From Hypomesus transpacificus (lineage: Eukaryota; Chordata; Actinopteri; Osmeriformes; Osmeridae), in assembly GCF_021917145.1 (NCBI RefSeq), contig NC_061077.1:12792125-12856124 (forward strand): a stretch of DNA of 64,000 nt. Reading direction: 5' to 3'. The position numbers and the translations under genes are program-made. A model generated the notes under the pieces. It ran no database searches. It was not told the origin of the DNA and saw only the letters and a program-made list of their open reading frames with translations. Below are positions 3,180 to 64,000 of this stretch, one piece after another (within the stretch, counting starts at the first letter, position 1; each line of letters begins with the position of its first letter).

Positions 3180-3358
3180 CAACGACTGCGGCTTGTGTTT
3201 TCTGGATTACCGCAAAGACTGCGGCATATGTTCAGAAGGGTTTTCTTTTAATTTTCTTATTACTTTCATTACTGATAAGATAGTTTTTATAGATTTTATG
3301 TAAAGCACTTTGTGCTGCAATCCGTGCATGAAATGTGCTATATAAATAAAGTCTTATT
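3180..3358 (+). mobile_element. LINE 3' tail (L2-like)
   Basis: The segment ends with GTAAAGCACTTTGTGCTGC, a short variable stretch, and GCTATATAAATAAAGT. This is the typical 3' UTR end of L2-like fish LINEs, followed by T/A-rich sequence. Upstream, three degenerate ACTGCGGC-containing units (3155-3225) form a small tandem array. There is no ORF. Confidence 0.65.
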
Positions 3359-3359
3359 A

Positions 3360-3895
3360 GGGTTCCTCCTGTTTTTGTTAGTATTCTTATTATTATATTT
3401 CTCCATTAAATGGCTCAATAGCTCAAAAAGTCCTTCGGACGATTTTTTCAAATTTGGCCCAATGATACAACAGGTCACTCACTACTCCCAGACGGCTCGT
3501 GGCCCACGTATACCCATCGGTGGCGCTATAAACCACGCCCAAAGTCTATGTGATTTCCCCAGCGTCCCATTACCACAAAATGCCTGAAGATTGCTATACA
3601 TGCCTTATTTCTCATGGGGAACAAAAAAGCCTCAAGGATCCAAAGCTAATACTTTGCCCTTTCTGTTAAAAAATCTCAACAGTTGATGTGTAGTAGAGGG
3701 GATAGAGAGGCTGACATGCAACCACATGATCTTGAGTTTCTAATCTCCAATCAACCTGTTGTTTGCCAAGCATGAATTGTTTTTGGTGTCTTGTTGTCCA
3801 ACTTTTGACCTTCTCCAATATACATTTTCATAATATTTTGCCATTTTGAGGAGGAACCCACATCGCTACTTGCAGCTATATTTATTATTATTATT
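3360..3895. repeat. Interspersed repeat of unknown class, flanked by (TTA)n
   Basis: The unit begins with GGGTTCCTCCTGTTTTTGTT and ends near GAGGAGGAACCCACATCGCT, followed by (ATT)n. The two ends are partly inverted (GGGTTCCTCC / GGAGGAACCC), and both sides abut TTA-rich sequence. The internal text (TGGCTCAATAGCTCAAAAAG, GGTGGCGCTATAAACCACGC) recurs in many fish genomes as far as I recall. It is non-coding. Confidence 0.55.
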
Positions 3896-7537: not shown

Positions 7538-9627
7538 TTATTTATCAACCTCTAGAAAGGGTGATTGGAATGAGACATAGGAGTGCAGGGAGCCTCGAGA
7601 GGCCAAACCAAGACCAGAACACACACCCACGGAGACAGACAGAAAACACGGGGGGCAAGGAAGACCAGGAGAACTTAAACTGGTGCATGGCTGTGACCGT
7701 CTGTGTTTGTGTGTCTTACCTCTTCCATGTGTACCATGTGGGGTCATTGTTGTGGCAGTGGTGCTTTTAGGGGACACCTTGGGGCTCCTGGTATCTACCC
7801 TACACCTCTTGGTGTTGCCCTGGGACAGGGAGAGGGAGGACGAAGACGAGGAGTCCTCAAGGGACAGTGCCGTCGAAGACTCCCCCGAATCCTGTCTCTC
7901 TTCCAGCTCTCTCTTCCTCTTCCTCTCCCCTCCTCTGCTGCTCTCTGCATCTCTTCTTTCCTTTCTCTTTCTCTTTTTCTGTCTCCCTGCTTTCCTCTCC
8001 TCCTCTGGATGCAGCCACGGGTGGAGAAGGACTTCCTCTAGAGTGGGCCGGTCTTCGGGGCACTTTGCCAAACACAATTTCAGCAGGTTCTTACATTCTG
8101 GAGAGAGAAAGAAAGAGAAAGAGATAGATAGCAGAGAATATGAGAGAAGTGGAGGAAACTGTGGTCAGTTTGATACAGACAGAAAGCATGTGTGTGCCTC
8201 TGTGTGAGTGTGTATGTTTATTTTTCTCGTCTGCGTGTGGATGGGTGTCTTACGGCTGGAAAACCCATCCATGGTAGGGATAGGATCACAATAAAGGACC
8301 TGGTCGGGTGTGCGAAAGGGGAATATCCCAGACAGCACGTTGTATAACAGTACCCCCAGCTGCCAGACAGCGGATGGAACCGCCTTGTAGGAACCATGGA
8401 GGTACCATTCAGGAGGGATGTACATTTTGGTCCCTGACACACACACACAAAACAACCTAAGTTAAACCGCACATGGAAGTGTGTGTACGTATGTGATTGG
8501 GTGCAATCGCAACTGAGTCCATTCTTTATTTCCGCTCAAGTCCTTGTGTTTGTCATCATGGTAAATCTTCGATGATATATTGCTTTTTAATATCGATGGG
8601 GGGGGGGGGGGGGCAGAGACAATACAAGAGTAGGGAATCGTACCAAGGAACTCGGTGTAGGGTGCTTCTTGAATAATGCAGCCACAGCCAAAGTCCAGAA
8701 CCCTAATCCGTGGAACTGCAGATCCGGTCTCGACCAGAAGGTTCTCTGGCTTAATATCTCGGTGGAGGACACCCCAAGAGTGAAAATTGACCATGGCCTC
8801 AACCAGCTGCCTCAGAATGATCTACAGAAAGAGAAAGAGACCGAGAGAAAGATGGAGGACAGTTGGGAGAGGAGGGGCAAATGGTGATGAATGTTGACTT
8901 TCACAAATAGCTCTTTGGAGGTGGATGGCTGTGATGAACTTGTCTGCACACACTCACTTTGGCCTGATCCTCTGGAAGACATCCTCCTCTCTCCTGGATA
9001 TAGTCAAACAGTTCCACGGCGGGTACAGGCCTCTCCAGAACTATAATGAGCTCTTGGTCCAGCTCGTACCAGTTCAGCAGCTCCACTGCTGCCTGACCGT
9101 CTCCAACCCTGGCCTCACCCCTCAACTCCTCACCCCTGGCCTTCTCAGCCATGTCTGCCCCACCCTGTCCTACAATCAGTAGGAGCACCACCTCCAGGGG
9201 GAGCTGGCGGAGCTTCCCACGCAGGGTCTTAAACACAGAACACAGACAACCAGTTAGAGTTCATGCTGCAATAGGGATGTTATCCATTGGAAGACATGGA
9301 TGACAGATAATTCAGAATGAGAATCTATAATGGAATATATGAATTGTAAAAGTGGGATTGGTCCACTCACCACAGTTGTATTTATCACCTTATCAATGGG
9401 AACGTGCTTGACTGCCACCTATCGAAAGAGACGGGTGGGGGGAAATACAACATGTTGATTTATAAAAATGATATACTGCTCTGTGTGTGACTGTGTGTAT
9501 ATTTTTGTATGTGTGTGTTATGTCATTCGTACAGGCAGATTGTCATCTATACGGAGTCCAGCGTAGACTGAGCCGAAGCCACCTTGGCCAAGACAGCTCA
9601 GTTCCACGTACTTCTCCTCAAACGATC
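7538..9627 (-). CDS. Pim-like serine/threonine-protein kinase (5' end not found)
   Basis: Six coding exons on the minus strand: 9533-9627, 9371-9418, 8958-9227, 8644-8821, 8254-8433 and 7538-8097, all with GT-AG borders and consistent phases (443 visible residues). They encode, in order, SFEEKYVELSCLGQGGFGSV (glycine loop), VAVKHVP (ATP lysine), an aC/b4 region with a Gly/Glu-rich insert of about 25 residues, LDQELIIVLERP and LPEDQAK. Then come HRDIKPENLL (catalytic loop), LDFGCG (metal-binding DFG), MYIPPEW (P+1 loop), WQLGVLLYNVLSGIFPF and the PIM-type end RPTLEEVLLHPWL. A tail of about 120 residues rich in Lys/Arg, then Ser, could direct it to the nucleus. PIM kinases phosphorylate basophilic Ser/Thr sites and promote survival, and teleosts carry many pim-like copies. 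The first exon, with the start codon, must lie upstream of 9627 and I could not identify it. All catalytic residues are present, so it is probably active. Confidence 0.85.
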
Positions 9628-18998: not shown

Positions 18999-19498
18999 NN
19001 NNNNNNNNNNNNNNNNNNNNNNNNNNNNNNNNNNNNNNNNNNNNNNNNNNNNNNNNNNNNNNNNNNNNNNNNNNNNNNNNNNNNNNNNNNNNNNNNNNNN
19101 NNNNNNNNNNNNNNNNNNNNNNNNNNNNNNNNNNNNNNNNNNNNNNNNNNNNNNNNNNNNNNNNNNNNNNNNNNNNNNNNNNNNNNNNNNNNNNNNNNNN
19201 NNNNNNNNNNNNNNNNNNNNNNNNNNNNNNNNNNNNNNNNNNNNNNNNNNNNNNNNNNNNNNNNNNNNNNNNNNNNNNNNNNNNNNNNNNNNNNNNNNNN
19301 NNNNNNNNNNNNNNNNNNNNNNNNNNNNNNNNNNNNNNNNNNNNNNNNNNNNNNNNNNNNNNNNNNNNNNNNNNNNNNNNNNNNNNNNNNNNNNNNNNNN
19401 NNNNNNNNNNNNNNNNNNNNNNNNNNNNNNNNNNNNNNNNNNNNNNNNNNNNNNNNNNNNNNNNNNNNNNNNNNNNNNNNNNNNNNNNNNNNNNNNNN
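18999..19498. other. Assembly gap of exactly 500 N
   Basis: A round-number run of N is a scaffold join of unknown true size. The left edge lies inside a LINE copy, so the join probably failed at a repeat. Frames spanning it are meaningless. Confidence 1.
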
Positions 19499-34865: not shown

Positions 34866-47839
<12,974 letters not shown>

Positions 47840-59322: not shown

Positions 59323-62300
59323 ATGGCCAGCAAGCGGAAGTCCACCATCCCCTGTATGATTCCCAGCAAGACCATGCACCTGCGAGAGGAGCTGGAGCAG
59401 GAGGCCCCATCGCTGGCCCGCCTGGCCAGGGAGCAGGGCTTCCTCTCCCGGGGCGGCAGGGGGAGCCCCCTGGTCGATCAGGGTCTGTCCTACCGGCCAG
59501 AAGGGGGCGACGCGCTGAAAGACGGCGGCGGCACCTACACCTGCAGGCCGTGCAACTTCGAGACCCACGACCTGAACCTGTTCCTGGACCACGTGTACAG
59601 CGGACACCCGGACTTCCGCGCCGACCCCAGCTTCCACTGCCTGGACTGCGGCGTGTCGGCGGCTAAGTTCGAGGGCCTGGCCCTGCACAACGCACGCTCC
59701 CACCCCAGCACGCTGAGCACCATGCTGCAGCTGAGGAGGCGGGAGCGGAGGGTGGTGGTGGAGCAGAGCCTGCTGGCGGGGACGGAGGGCGAGATCTCCA
59801 TCACCAAAACCCCCATCATGAGGATGCTCAAGGGGAAGTCTGAACCCAAGAGGATCGTGGTGTCCCACTCGTCGAGCGCCGACGAAATCGAGTCCTTCCA
59901 AGGCCGGGACGGGGACAGGAAAGAGGCGCCGGCGGTGGCGGTGACCCACGTGCCCACCATCGTCCACAACGGCGCGGCCACCAAGGTGTCGCTGCCCTCC
60001 GCCATCCAGATCGTCAACGGTTCAGGAACTCTCCCCATGCTGAAGACCGCCATCACACAGGTCCACGTCCTCTTTCAAATCGTAGCCCTGGGTCTGTGGG
60101 GTCTTGAAGCTGAAACTAACTTTTGTTGTGCCCCCCCCCCCCTTTTTCCACAGGTGGTGTCGGTGGTGCAGAACCGGAGCCTCAACCAGCAGTCAGCGCC
60201 TATCACCGTGTCCTCCGCCTTCTCCTCCACCTCCACCTCAGCCTCCTCCAAGAACATGCCCAAGGTCATTGTCCCTACTGGCCACTAACGTCCTTGTGTC
60301 ATCCGATGGCTGTTTGAACGACGTCCTCCTCAGCCAATCCAATGTCTTCATACGTGTTTGCTTCTCTTCCCCTTCCGTCTCTTCTCCTTCCCCTCCAGGT
60401 GATGATCCCTCTGAGCAGCATCCCTACCTACAGCGCCTCCATGGACTCCTCCTCCTTCCTGAAAACCTCCTTCAGCAAGTTCCCCTACCCCACCAAGGCG
60501 GAGCTCTGCTACCTGACAGTGGTCACCAAGTTCCCCGAGGAGCAGATCAAGATCTGGTTCACGGCCCAGAGACTCAAGCAGGGCATCAGCTGGTCCCCCG
60601 AGGAGATCGAGGAGGCCCGCAGGAAGATGTTCAACACCATCATCCAGACGGCCTCCCCCAGCTCCCAGCAGCAGCGCCACAACCTGTCCCAGAGCCACTC
60701 CAGTCAGTCCCAGCACACCATCACGGTCCTCCCCGCCTCGCTGGGCCCCACGGGTATCCCGCACATCCTCCAGGGCTCCCTGGTCAGCCAGGGGAGCGTC
60801 ATCGTCACACAGCCCATAATGGCCAACGGCATCCAGGTCACCAGCGCTCCCATGGCCCTCGCCGTGACCCCCAAGCCGCAGGCCGCTGCCCGGCCCATGA
60901 TGCAGGCCCGACCTGCCGCCGCCCTAGTGGCTGACAAGGGGATCAGCATGGTGGTGGGCTCCGTGGGGAGCAGCAGCAGTGGAAGCCACATCGTTAGCAG
61001 CAGCGGTAGCAGTAACGGCGGAAGCAGCACAAGCAGTATTATCAGCAGTAGCAGTAGCATTCACAGCAATAGCAGCAGCAGTAGTTTGAGCAGTCACGCA
61101 AGTGTGATCAACCTTAGTATTGGAAACGGTAACTACAGTAATACCAATGGTAAAATCAACAATGCTAAAATCATTAATATCAACGCTTACCTAAATGGCA
61201 AGAGCAACATGAGTGCTGCTAGCCATGTTTTTTCCGCTAAAAGCAACGCTGATGCTAAAAACAGCAGTGGTGTGAAGTGTAATAGCGATAGCAGAATTAG
61301 CATTGGCATAAGCAGCCCGGACAGGAAAGCTAACAGCACCAGTAAAGACAACAACAGTCAAAAGAGCAAAGATGCTAACAGCGCTAGCAACAAGAGCATT
61401 AGCCTTAGCAGCACCACCACCACAACAAGTGCCACCACAACCATGGCTACACCCACAGCTGTGACCACCAACTCCACGGCTAACACCGCCACGGTTAAAA
61501 CTGAGGGCTCCTCCTCCCCTGCCACCAAGTCTTCCTCCCCCGCACCGGCAACCAACTCCAGCGGAACCCCCAGCTCCAGAACGCTTCCCAACACCTTCCT
61601 GGACCCCAGCTTCTACAAGAGCAAGAAGTCTCAGGAGCAACTGGGCGCGCTCAAAGAGAGCTTCCTGACCAATCAGTTCCCCAACCAGGAGGAGGTCGAC
61701 CGCCTCATAGCCCTGACAGGCCTTACCGTCCGCGAGGTTCGCAAGTGGTTCAGCGACCGCCGCTACCATTTCCGTAACCTCAAAGGCTCGCGGTCGAGCA
61801 CGGGCGGCCAGGGCAGCGGCCAGGGCAGCGGCCAGGGCAGCGGCCAGGGCAGCGGCCAGGGCAGCGGCCAGGGCAGCGGCCAGGGCAGCGGCCAGGGCAG
61901 CGGCCAGGGGAGCGGCCAGGGGAGCGGCAAGTCTGCGACCGGCTCTACGCCAGGCTCCACGGCCGGCTGCGGCGCCACCCCCATGGACCTATCAGACGGT
62001 GCCACCCGCACCGACACGCCTAAACCCCCCCTGCAGGGCTTGGCGCCCCTCAGCCCCCCTCCCTCGCAGACGCCCACATCCCCCACCACGCCCTCTCGCC
62101 GGCCCCCCAGACCCCCCTCCCCAGACTTCACAGCCATCCGCTACAAAGAGAGGGACCCCCAACAGGTGAGTGCATCGGAAAAACCGGGTCCGTTTGTTGG
62201 CTCTGTACACAAGCCTGCACACAGGACGGCCTCTAATGTCTTATGGGGGAGTGAAAAGGAACTTATCTAACATCACATCTCCCCATCTTCTCCCCACTTC

Positions 62301-63839
62301 CAGGTGAAGGCGCTCGAGGCCAGCTTCTCCCAGGACTCAGACCCCCCCGGAGAGGAGGTGGACCGGCTACGGGCCGAGACCAAGATGACCCGACGGGAGA
62401 TCCACGGCTGGTTCGCCGAGAGGAGGAAGAGAGTGGCCGCGGAGAAGAAGAAGGAGGACCTGGAGAGGGCGGAACGAGAGGAGGAGGACCTGGCCGAAGC
62501 GGCGGCGGCGGGGGGAGAGGAGGGAAAGAGGGGGGACGGCGTCAAGAAAGAGGAGGACGCGGAGGAAGGGAAGGATGAAAGGCAGAAGGAGGACGGCACG
62601 GGCTCCGAGCTCAAAGTCAACCCCATCAAGATCAACCTGAAGATGCTGAAAGTGACCGAGGCCAACGGGAAGGCGGAGAACGAGGCGGGCCAGGCAACCG
62701 GCCAATCGGACAGCTCCGCCATGCCACCGCCCTCCGCCTCCAACCCCACCCCGTCGCCCTCCCCCGTCCCGTCCTCAGCACTCACCCCCAAGCCAGTCCT
62801 CTCCCAGTCCCCGAAACCCTCCTCCTCCCCCAAGCCCTCGCCAATCCGGGGCAAGAAGACCGCCGAGCAGCTCCACCTCCTTAAACAGGTGTACGCCCGC
62901 ACGCAGTGGCCCAGCAGCACCCAGTACGACGAGCTGATCTCGGGCACCGGCCTGCCCCGCCCCGAGGTGGTGCGCTGGTTCGGGGACTGCCGCTACGTGC
63001 AGAAGAATGGCCAGCTCAAGTGGCTGGAGGCCTACCAGACCATGGCCCTGGAGGAAGACCTCCAGAGGGGGGACATCCAGATGCTCCGAGCCCACCTGGA
63101 GGCTCACGGCAGCCTGGAGGAAGGACAGGTACCAGCCTTGGGTACCCCAGACAGCAGACGGGGGGCACATTCTGTATACGTGGGGGGGGGGGGTTATTGA
63201 ATTTAGTTTAGCTGGTATGATGATGCCGATAGGAGTGTCCCAAAAGTGAACAATTCTGAGGAGAAATACACACCCATCTGAGACAAATCTCTAGAAACCA
63301 ATTTAAGGGGACACAGACTGTTACGTCTAGATGATGGATGAGTGTTAAGAGGCTGATCCAGCATGTTGTGTCCTCTTCCAGGTGTTGGAGCTGGCCCAGG
63401 CCAGTGGCCTCACGGAGGAACTGGTCCGACGCTGGTTCTCCACCCAGACCTCCGCCCCGCCGGCACCCTCCCCGTGCCAGCCCGCCACAGCCCCCCCCCC
63501 CCCCTCCGACCGCCACCATTCCCAGCCAGACTCCTCCACCACCCCTCTCCTCCCAGGCCGCCCTGTCACCACCATCCCCACCCCCCCCACCCCCACTCGC
63601 TGCCCAGACCCCCCCGCCACCCCAAGCCGAGGGGGGCGGAGGGGAGGGGACGGAAGCACAGACGCCGGAGGCGGCGGCGGCGGGGGCTCCGTCTGTGGTG
63701 ACGGGGGGGTCAGCGTCGCTACCCGAACCCGAGCAGGGGGGCGGGAAGGAGCTGAGAGTGGAGCCGTCTGTGTGCGGGAGCACGGAACAGGACCAGGAGA
63801 AGAAGGAGGAGCCTGTCGAGGCTGTCCAACCTGCTGAAG
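59323..63839 (+). CDS. zhx3: Zinc fingers and homeoboxes protein 3 (C-terminus uncertain)
   Basis: A nuclear transcriptional repressor that partners NF-YA and other ZHX proteins. Exons: 59323-60060, 60154-60264, 60399-62165, 62304-63128 and 63382 to at least 63839, all phase 0. The start MASKRKSTIPCMIPSKT matches the family. Two C2H2 fingers are CRPCNFETHDLNLFLDHVYS with H95 (C74, C77, H90, H95) and C106/C109/H122/H127. Five homeodomains follow: FPYPTKAELCYLTVVTKFPE with IKIWFTAQRLKQG (about 300-358), QEQLGALKESF with VREVRKWFSDRR (about 686-745), VKALEASF with REIHGWFAERRKR (about 870-925), AEQLHLLKQVY with PEVVRWFGDCRY (about 1053-1112), and GLTEELVRRWFSTQ (to about 1180). The linker between HD1 and HD2 is long and Ser/Asn-rich, and a GQGS repeat follows HD2. 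The human protein is 956 aa, this one about 1300. In the last exon a poly-C run (63491-63504) seems to have the wrong length: the homeodomain frame turns non-descript, while another frame continues as a plausible acidic tail (VEPSVCGSTEQDQEKKEEPV). A donor-like GTGCGC at 63840 or a stop at 63908-63910 ends it. Confidence 0.93.
60061..60153 (+). other. ZHX3 intron 1, 93 nt, stop-free and in frame
   Basis: GTCCAC donor, a C11-12/T5 tract and CCACAG acceptor. Its length is a multiple of three and it has no stop, so retention would insert 31 residues. The inserted peptide lacks family similarity, which supports real splicing. Confidence 0.8.
60265..60398 (+). other. ZHX3 intron 2, 134 nt
   Basis: Removal joins NMPK to VMIPLSSIPTY, matching the family sequence LPKVMIPLSSIPTY. 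The intron's own first codons (VIVPT, then a stop) resemble the start of the following exon (VMIPL). Confidence 0.85.
61806..61927 (+). repeat. 12-bp coding minisatellite (GQGS)n in ZHX3
   Basis: About ten near-identical GGCCAGGGCAGC units directly after homeodomain 2, the last two with GGGGAGC. It encodes Gly-Gln-Gly-Ser repeats that keep frame at any copy number. It is absent from the mammalian protein as I recall it. Confidence 0.95.
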
Positions 63840-64000
63840 GTGCGCAGATTCCCTCTTTTCCCCCCATTCTGTTACGGCATTCGAAGGCGGTAGGAACGAG
63901 AGGTGTTTAGAAATAGACGATTGTCCTACGCATTCCAATCGACACGCGAGGTCGAGTCGGAACGCCACGGGGTTTTAGATTCGAGATTTGGGGCTAACGC
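63840..64000 (+). other. Sequence beyond the last seen ZHX3 coding part
   Basis: Either the 3' end of the last exon (stop at 63908-63910 in the acidic-tail frame) or the start of an intron with further exons beyond the window. I cannot tell which. Confidence 0.4.

Follow-up and report, generated by a model that had tools for sequence, protein, structure and literature searches.

In mammals, the coding sequence of ZHX genes occupies a single exon. In a 64,000-nucleotide stretch of Hypomesus transpacificus DNA (contig NC_061077.1; below, the window), the coding sequence of a ZHX3 gene, here called zhx3a, is split by four intervals of 93, 134, 138, and 253 nt, which raises the question of how it came to be interrupted. 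The answer that we favor from the sequence is that zhx3a probably gained introns without any duplication of its exons. After the zhx3 copies separated, the copy in the window would have acquired four short spliceosomal introns at (A/C)AG|GT junctions, and the sister copy (zhx3b) as well as the zhx1 and zhx2 genes would have stayed uninterrupted at those places.

The four introns of zhx3a

The gene lies on the + strand of the window with its start codon at 59323. A Pfam search found the ZHX zinc-finger domain (zf_C2H2_ZHX, 1e-26) together with homeodomains, and the top matches among solved structures in the PDB were human ZHX3 chains for both exon 3 (2dn0, 3.9e-24) and the segment of the third homeodomain, HD3 (2da5, 4.5e-20). 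Thus, the name ZHX3 given to the gene in a first-pass annotation of this DNA holds. In the same structure comparison, HD1 matched DUX4-type and ZHX2 chains and no ZHX3 chain, and the five weak matches of HD5 comprised three homeodomain proteins and no ZHX3.

All four intervals begin with GT, end with CAG, and lie in phase 0. The bases preceding the donors are CAG, AAG, CAG, and CAG, and the following exon opens with GTG in every case. Canonical GT-AG ends, the proto-splice site MAG|N, and AGGT at both junctions are each present in four of four. The first-pass annotation had listed the same lengths, phase, AG before the donor, and GTG after the acceptor, and our recount at 60061-63381 agreed with it throughout.

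Intron 1 (60061..60153, + strand, as are the others; 93 nt) reads CAG|GTCCAC...CACAG|GTG and is open in frame, with a CTAAC motif about 35 nt before its end. Intron 2 (60265..60398; 134 nt) reads AAG|GTCATT...CCAG|GTG and has both an in-frame stop and a length that breaks the frame. Intron 3 (62166..62303; 138 nt), which reads CAG|GTGAGT...CCAG|GTG and also holds an in-frame stop, divides HD3 between Q and V. Intron 4 (63129..63381; 253 nt) reads CAG|GTACCA...CCAG|GTG, divides the last homeodomain-like stretch and, like intron 2, is not a multiple of three in length. Because of these stops and non-triplet lengths, reading through introns 2, 3, or 4 would yield a truncated or shifted protein. 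The introns carry pyrimidine-rich 3' tracts and branch-like motifs, and their GC content is 0.48-0.54 as compared to 0.65 in the coding sequence. The four intervals are probably spliced out as introns.

As a control we used a DHX35 helicase gene located at 35252-46801 of the window on the - strand. Its spliced alignment to human chain 9s2f gave 15 introns within the parts aligned to that chain, with junctions picked by protein fit and GT/AG only. The complementarity of the zhx3a donors to U1 is 5, 6, 8, and 6 of 9 for introns 1 to 4, with a mean of 6.25 as compared to 5.8 for the 15 DHX35 introns. Because the two means are close, the zhx3a donors appear ordinary for the region, and the idea that they are unusually weak was dropped after this control.

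Intron 1 requires separate consideration because it is 93 nt long and open in frame, so that translation could pass through it if it stayed in the transcript. It is conceivable, but improbable, that this interval is coding sequence and that only the other three are introns. Its triplet length, the lack of a stop, a donor (CAGGTCCAC) that matches U1 at 5/9, and its position in a weakly conserved part of the protein would all fit such a reading. However, the interval has a run of 12 C and a TTTTTCCACAG end, with the CTAAC motif upstream, all four paralogs are contiguous at this site, and a still weaker donor (4/9) exists in DHX35. The status of intron 1 as an intron rests on its 3' end and on the continuity of the paralogs.

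Absence from the paralogs and direction of change

The genome to which the window belongs (437 Mb in 376 contigs) contains at least four further ZHX genes, namely, zhx3b on contig C9 (943-codon open frame), zhx2 on C2 (841-codon open frame), and two zhx1 genes, one on C2 (812-codon open frame, homeodomain part) and one on C4 (990-codon open frame). These four genes were compared to zhx3a at the four intron sites. Over HD1, zhx3a and zhx3b share 85%, while either of them shares 55-64% with zhx1 or zhx2. The two zhx3 genes are presumably whole-genome duplicates of a teleost, a group to which the presence of two zhx1 and two zhx3 genes would also point.

Of the 16 combinations of site and paralog, 15 could be aligned, and in all 15 the coding sequence of the paralog runs on without a break or additional residues. 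Conservation is weak around site 1, and none of the four paralogs carries an insert there. Conservation is good at sites 2 and 3; intron 2 is absent from 4/4 paralogs and intron 3 from the 3/3 that can be aligned. Human ZHX3 is likewise contiguous at site 3 (PEQLRALE), as judged from the protein in 2da5 and not from gene structure. Intron 4 is absent from 4/4 paralogs, of which zhx2 and zhx3b align weakly at this site. The only combination that could not be aligned was zhx3b at site 3, where HD2 and HD3 are absent.

Thus, the four insertions appear to be private to zhx3a and are most simply explained as intron gains, because under the opposite direction losses would have to recur in several lineages. 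The intron gain put forward in the first-pass annotation is supported by the uninterrupted sequence at all 15 alignable paralog positions of the same genome.

Alternatively, the introns could be ancestral and have been lost from zhx3b, zhx2, zhx1, and the mammalian genes, perhaps via reverse-transcribed copies. The good splice consensus of the junctions speaks for such a history, and loss mediated by complementary DNA can clear a gene of every intron in a single step. It would nevertheless require that introns were lost independently in zhx3b, zhx2, zhx1, and tetrapod ZHX3 at the least, and no intron is left at any of the 15 aligned positions. Zhx/Homez are listed among the human families without invertebrate orthologs (PMC2211742), so that we know of no older gene with introns. 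We consider an ancestral origin improbable.

Two other routes were considered and rejected. Intronization of an exon was set aside because nothing in the homologs corresponds to the introns, the 15 aligned paralog positions being contiguous and free of extra residues. Inheritance of a single homeodomain intron through repeat duplication was set aside because the position of intron 3 within HD3 is not that of intron 4 within HD5, as counted by hand with the usual homeodomain numbering. A scan of viral contigs yielded no confirmed zhx relative.

Some peculiarities of the paralogs were observed in passing. In the zhx3b locus (L006, 6326-9154), the part that would encode HD2 and HD3 is missing. 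The zhx1 gene on C2 (L009, approximately 3350-3700) keeps the first residues and the homeodomains but gives no match to the ZHX zinc finger; a genome-wide Pfam search found this finger at four places, none of which is zhx1 on C2. An intron or a deletion seems to take the place of its zinc fingers. Downstream of the same gene, on the - strand of L009 at approximately 8346-9047, there is a 234-codon open frame that by eye resembles a Harbinger-type transposase.

Junctions and origin of the inserted DNA

The junctions of zhx3a stand out, post hoc, from those of the control gene. MAG|GT junctions were found at all four zhx3a introns but at 1 of the 15 DHX35 introns (Fisher p 0.0013), and the perfect repeat spanning the donor and acceptor junctions measures 7, 4, 7, and 5 bp in zhx3a as compared to 0-4 bp in DHX35 (p 0.001). 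The joined zhx3a coding sequence has seven MAGGT sites, four of which are the intron positions. All seven are in phase 0, which suffices to account for the phase shared by the introns. In the five-way alignment, both zhx1 genes show a CAG|GT without an insert at site 1. At site 3, the residue is V in zhx3a, L in human ZHX3, and again V in human ZHX2.

The first-pass annotation had read this pattern as a recent tandem duplication of AGGT-bearing exon segments, of which intron 2 would still keep a relic of exon 3. The matches that it counted are correct. The start of intron 2 (GTCATTGTCCCT) agrees with that of exon 3 (GTGATGATCCCT) at 9/12 bases, 11/20, and 18/40; among the 136 GT sites of the joined coding sequence, the true site included, these scores are reached by 3, 4, and 4, respectively. 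The start of intron 3, which reads VSASE against VKALE in the next exon, agrees at 8/15 bases, a score reached by 8/136 GT sites, and at 6/12, reached by 33/136. At introns 1 and 4, the similarity of the start to the next exon is 3/12 and 5/12. When we required at least 7 matches in the 10 bases after GT, 2 of 19 true intron/exon pairs qualified as compared to 0 of 342 cross pairings. The figures for intron 2 and for the true pairs, together with the AG|GT found on both sides of all four introns, speak for a duplication.

However, the second of the two true pairs belongs to an ordinary DHX35 intron (42326-41839), which matches its next exon at 8/12 and 12/20, and the start of intron 2 is one of eight intron ends that were compared with exons. 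Under tandem duplication, the end of the upstream exon should recur at the 3' end of the intron. The 3' ends of introns 1 to 4 match the end of the upstream exon at 6, 4, 6, and 4 of 12 bases, so that intron 2 has no matching 3' end. The best of these suffix scores, that of intron 1, is reached by 15/350 AG sites and might also be taken to favor duplication; it reflects the CACAG that intron and exon share. Local alignments stayed at the level of shuffled sequences for all four introns, both against the flanking coding sequence, taken to at most 300 nt per side (p 0.99, 0.41, 0.68, and 0.80), and against the coding sequence as a whole (p 0.56, 0.29, 0.27, and 0.42).

Thus, AGGT does stand at both junctions, but the exon copy is not borne out: measured against controls, as the first-pass annotation had suggested, the similarity claimed for intron 2 is not clearly above chance, and a relic of exon 3 is not supported. 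A recent tandem duplication is unlikely since a recent copy should still be visible, and we regard the complete scenario, with intron 2 retaining a piece of exon 3, as very improbable. An old and by now eroded tandem duplication is a conceivable source of the introns.

Next, we considered whether the inserted DNA belongs to a repeated family. In a DNA search of the 437-Mb genome, which skips simple repeats, each intron gave a single match, itself, at E values up to 10. An introner or transposon family, sought genome-wide as near-identical copies, was therefore not seen. In pairwise comparison, introns 3 and 4 were more similar than shuffled sequences (p 0.04), and the other five pairs stayed at shuffle level (0.47-0.99). 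Repeated insertion by an introner or another transposon family would agree with several insertions at one motif and short junction repeats, with the similarity of introns 3 and 4, and with the greater frequency of introners in aquatic lineages (39/230 species vs 35/1367; PMC9860276). Against it stand the single match per intron, from which diverged copies may escape, the fact that the p value of 0.04 is one of six, and the lack of any pattern of introner gain in vertebrates in the relevant part of the same survey (PMC9860276). We consider such an origin highly unlikely.

In the scenario that we favor, gain without exon duplication, filler DNA would have been inserted at the sites, for example, when staggered breaks were repaired, a process that leaves short repeats. 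The inserts would have come to be spliced since the insertion point provided AG|GT at both ends. The break-repair step taken by itself is tentative, and we lean slightly against it. Two readings of the junctions remain: either the insertions hit pre-existing proto-splice sites, or insertion came first and the junction codons were later drawn to the consensus. In a more specific proposal, one duplicate of a gene with a single coding exon took introns at four of its seven MAG|GT sites, with junction repeats of 4-7 bp, while its sister took none; the introns would then have been gained by break repair in a site-directed burst that followed the gene duplication, and junction codons would have shifted to fit splicing (for example, L to V in a homeodomain). 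We consider such a burst rather unlikely. A review notes short repeats at 43% of the introns gained in Daphnia (PMC3443670).

Several points weigh against the scenario that we favor. The direction of change rests on the paralogs and on the single coding exon of mammalian ZHX genes, and at site 1 the residues of zhx1 (C2) were placed differently in the four-way and five-way alignments. The DNA search missed zhx1 on C4, which was found by Pfam, so that diverged copies of the introns could have been missed as well. The junction tests were chosen post hoc and compare four introns with one control gene. At sites 2-4, AG|GT is present in none of the 11 aligned paralog positions, and because of this absence it may be that selection for splicing produced the junction motif only once the DNA had been inserted. 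The junction repeats may also be a mere by-product of the splice consensus combined with exons that start with GT. In Drosophila, the share of introns with repeats of at least 5 bp is 25% among gained introns and 26% among conserved ones, according to the passages on junction repeats in the same review (PMC3443670). We therefore hold the junction signal lightly, given the single control gene and the lack of an excess at gained introns in Drosophila.

Relation to known intron gains and further features of the gene

Introns are seldom gained in vertebrates, and the way in which this happens is unsettled. Gains in ray-finned fishes with compact genomes have been described for serpin genes (Ragg et al. 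2009, PMC2746811). The gained serpin introns are 68-178 bp long, have GT-AG ends, sometimes occur more than once per gene, and, in the sections of the report concerned with their sequence, match no known repeat; five of seven lie between codons, and MAG precedes most insertion points (PMC2746811). The zhx3a introns resemble them in being short GT-AG introns, several to one gene, located between codons, and flanked by MAG (PMC2746811). In contrast to zhx3a, the serpin genes already carried introns, and their exon starts are mixed while those of zhx3a are all GTG. In addition, the absence of the serpin introns from zebrafish and tetrapods was established by species comparison (PMC2746811), whereas for zhx3a it was the paralogs that were compared.

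A second precedent is provided by G protein-coupled receptor (GPCR) genes. Introns were gained in compact fish genomes by the normally intronless MC2R and MC5R and also by P2Y receptors and CHRM3 (Kumar et al. 2011, PMC3151243). These single-coding-exon genes received as many as three introns, most of them at proto-splice sites; those of MC2R and MC5R measure 87-4500 bp, apart from two of 18 and 33 bp (PMC3151243). In the serpin and the receptor genes alike, MAG flanks prevail and the majority of the introns sit between codons (PMC2746811, PMC3151243). As far as the passages on intron origin go, the MC2R and MC5R introns show no homology to their flanks or elsewhere, with repeats inside some medaka and stickleback introns (PMC3151243). 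The case of zhx3a shares the proto-splice sites and the lack of detected intron homology with MC2R and MC5R (PMC3151243). A further likeness is the single coding exon, which is the state of the mammalian ZHX genes. Unlike these GPCR genes, zhx3a encodes a transcription factor with multiple homeodomains and has an uninterrupted sister copy in the same genome.

Thus, zhx3a appears to match the introns gained in fishes in its GT-AG ends, MAG flanks, lack of detectable homology, and absence from paralogs. It shares AGGT at both ends with introns that arose by tandem duplication (PMC3443670; potato RdRp, PMC4974935), but differs from them in that no exon copy was found inside its introns. The introner survey, in the sections that compare lineages, reports more introners in aquatic lineages and no pattern of gain in vertebrates (PMC9860276). 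Among the titles and opening lines of abstracts in the open-access literature, we found no report of intron gain in a ZHX gene. The gain in zhx3a would belong to a phenomenon that is already published, that is, multiple intron gains in the compact genomes of ray-finned fishes (PMC2746811, PMC3151243). With four apparent gains, a sister gene, and three further uninterrupted paralogs, zhx3a offers a clean internal comparison within one genome. The case could be dated across fishes and could serve to test whether insertions choose or make proto-splice sites.

The introns separate five coding exons, all on the + strand. Exon 1 (59323..60060) is an open frame that comprises the start codon and the ZHX zinc fingers found by Pfam. 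Exon 2 (60154..60264; 37 codons) was placed by its frame and by alignment to the paralogs. Exon 3 (60399..62165), supported by Pfam Homeodomain matches and by 2dn0, encodes HD1, a Ser/Asn-rich stretch, HD2, a Gly-Gln-Gly-Ser repeat, and the start of HD3. Exon 4 (62304..63128), also with Pfam Homeodomain matches, encodes the remainder of HD3, HD4, and the start of HD5. Exon 5 (63382..63840, a putative end), followed by its reading frame, encodes the remainder of HD5 and the C-terminal tail.

Exon 5 contains a run of 14 C at 63491-63504, and the protein-like frame (ending ...EEPVEAVQPAEG) differs after the run. A base-count error or a slippage polymorphism at this run is likely, and because of the run the C terminus and the true frame of exon 5 cannot be read with confidence. 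Elsewhere in the window, an assembly gap of exactly 500 N occupies 18999-19498. The Gly-Gln-Gly-Ser repeats between HD2 and HD3 are encoded by a 12-bp minisatellite of 10.4 copies, which lies within the coding sequence at 61804-61928.

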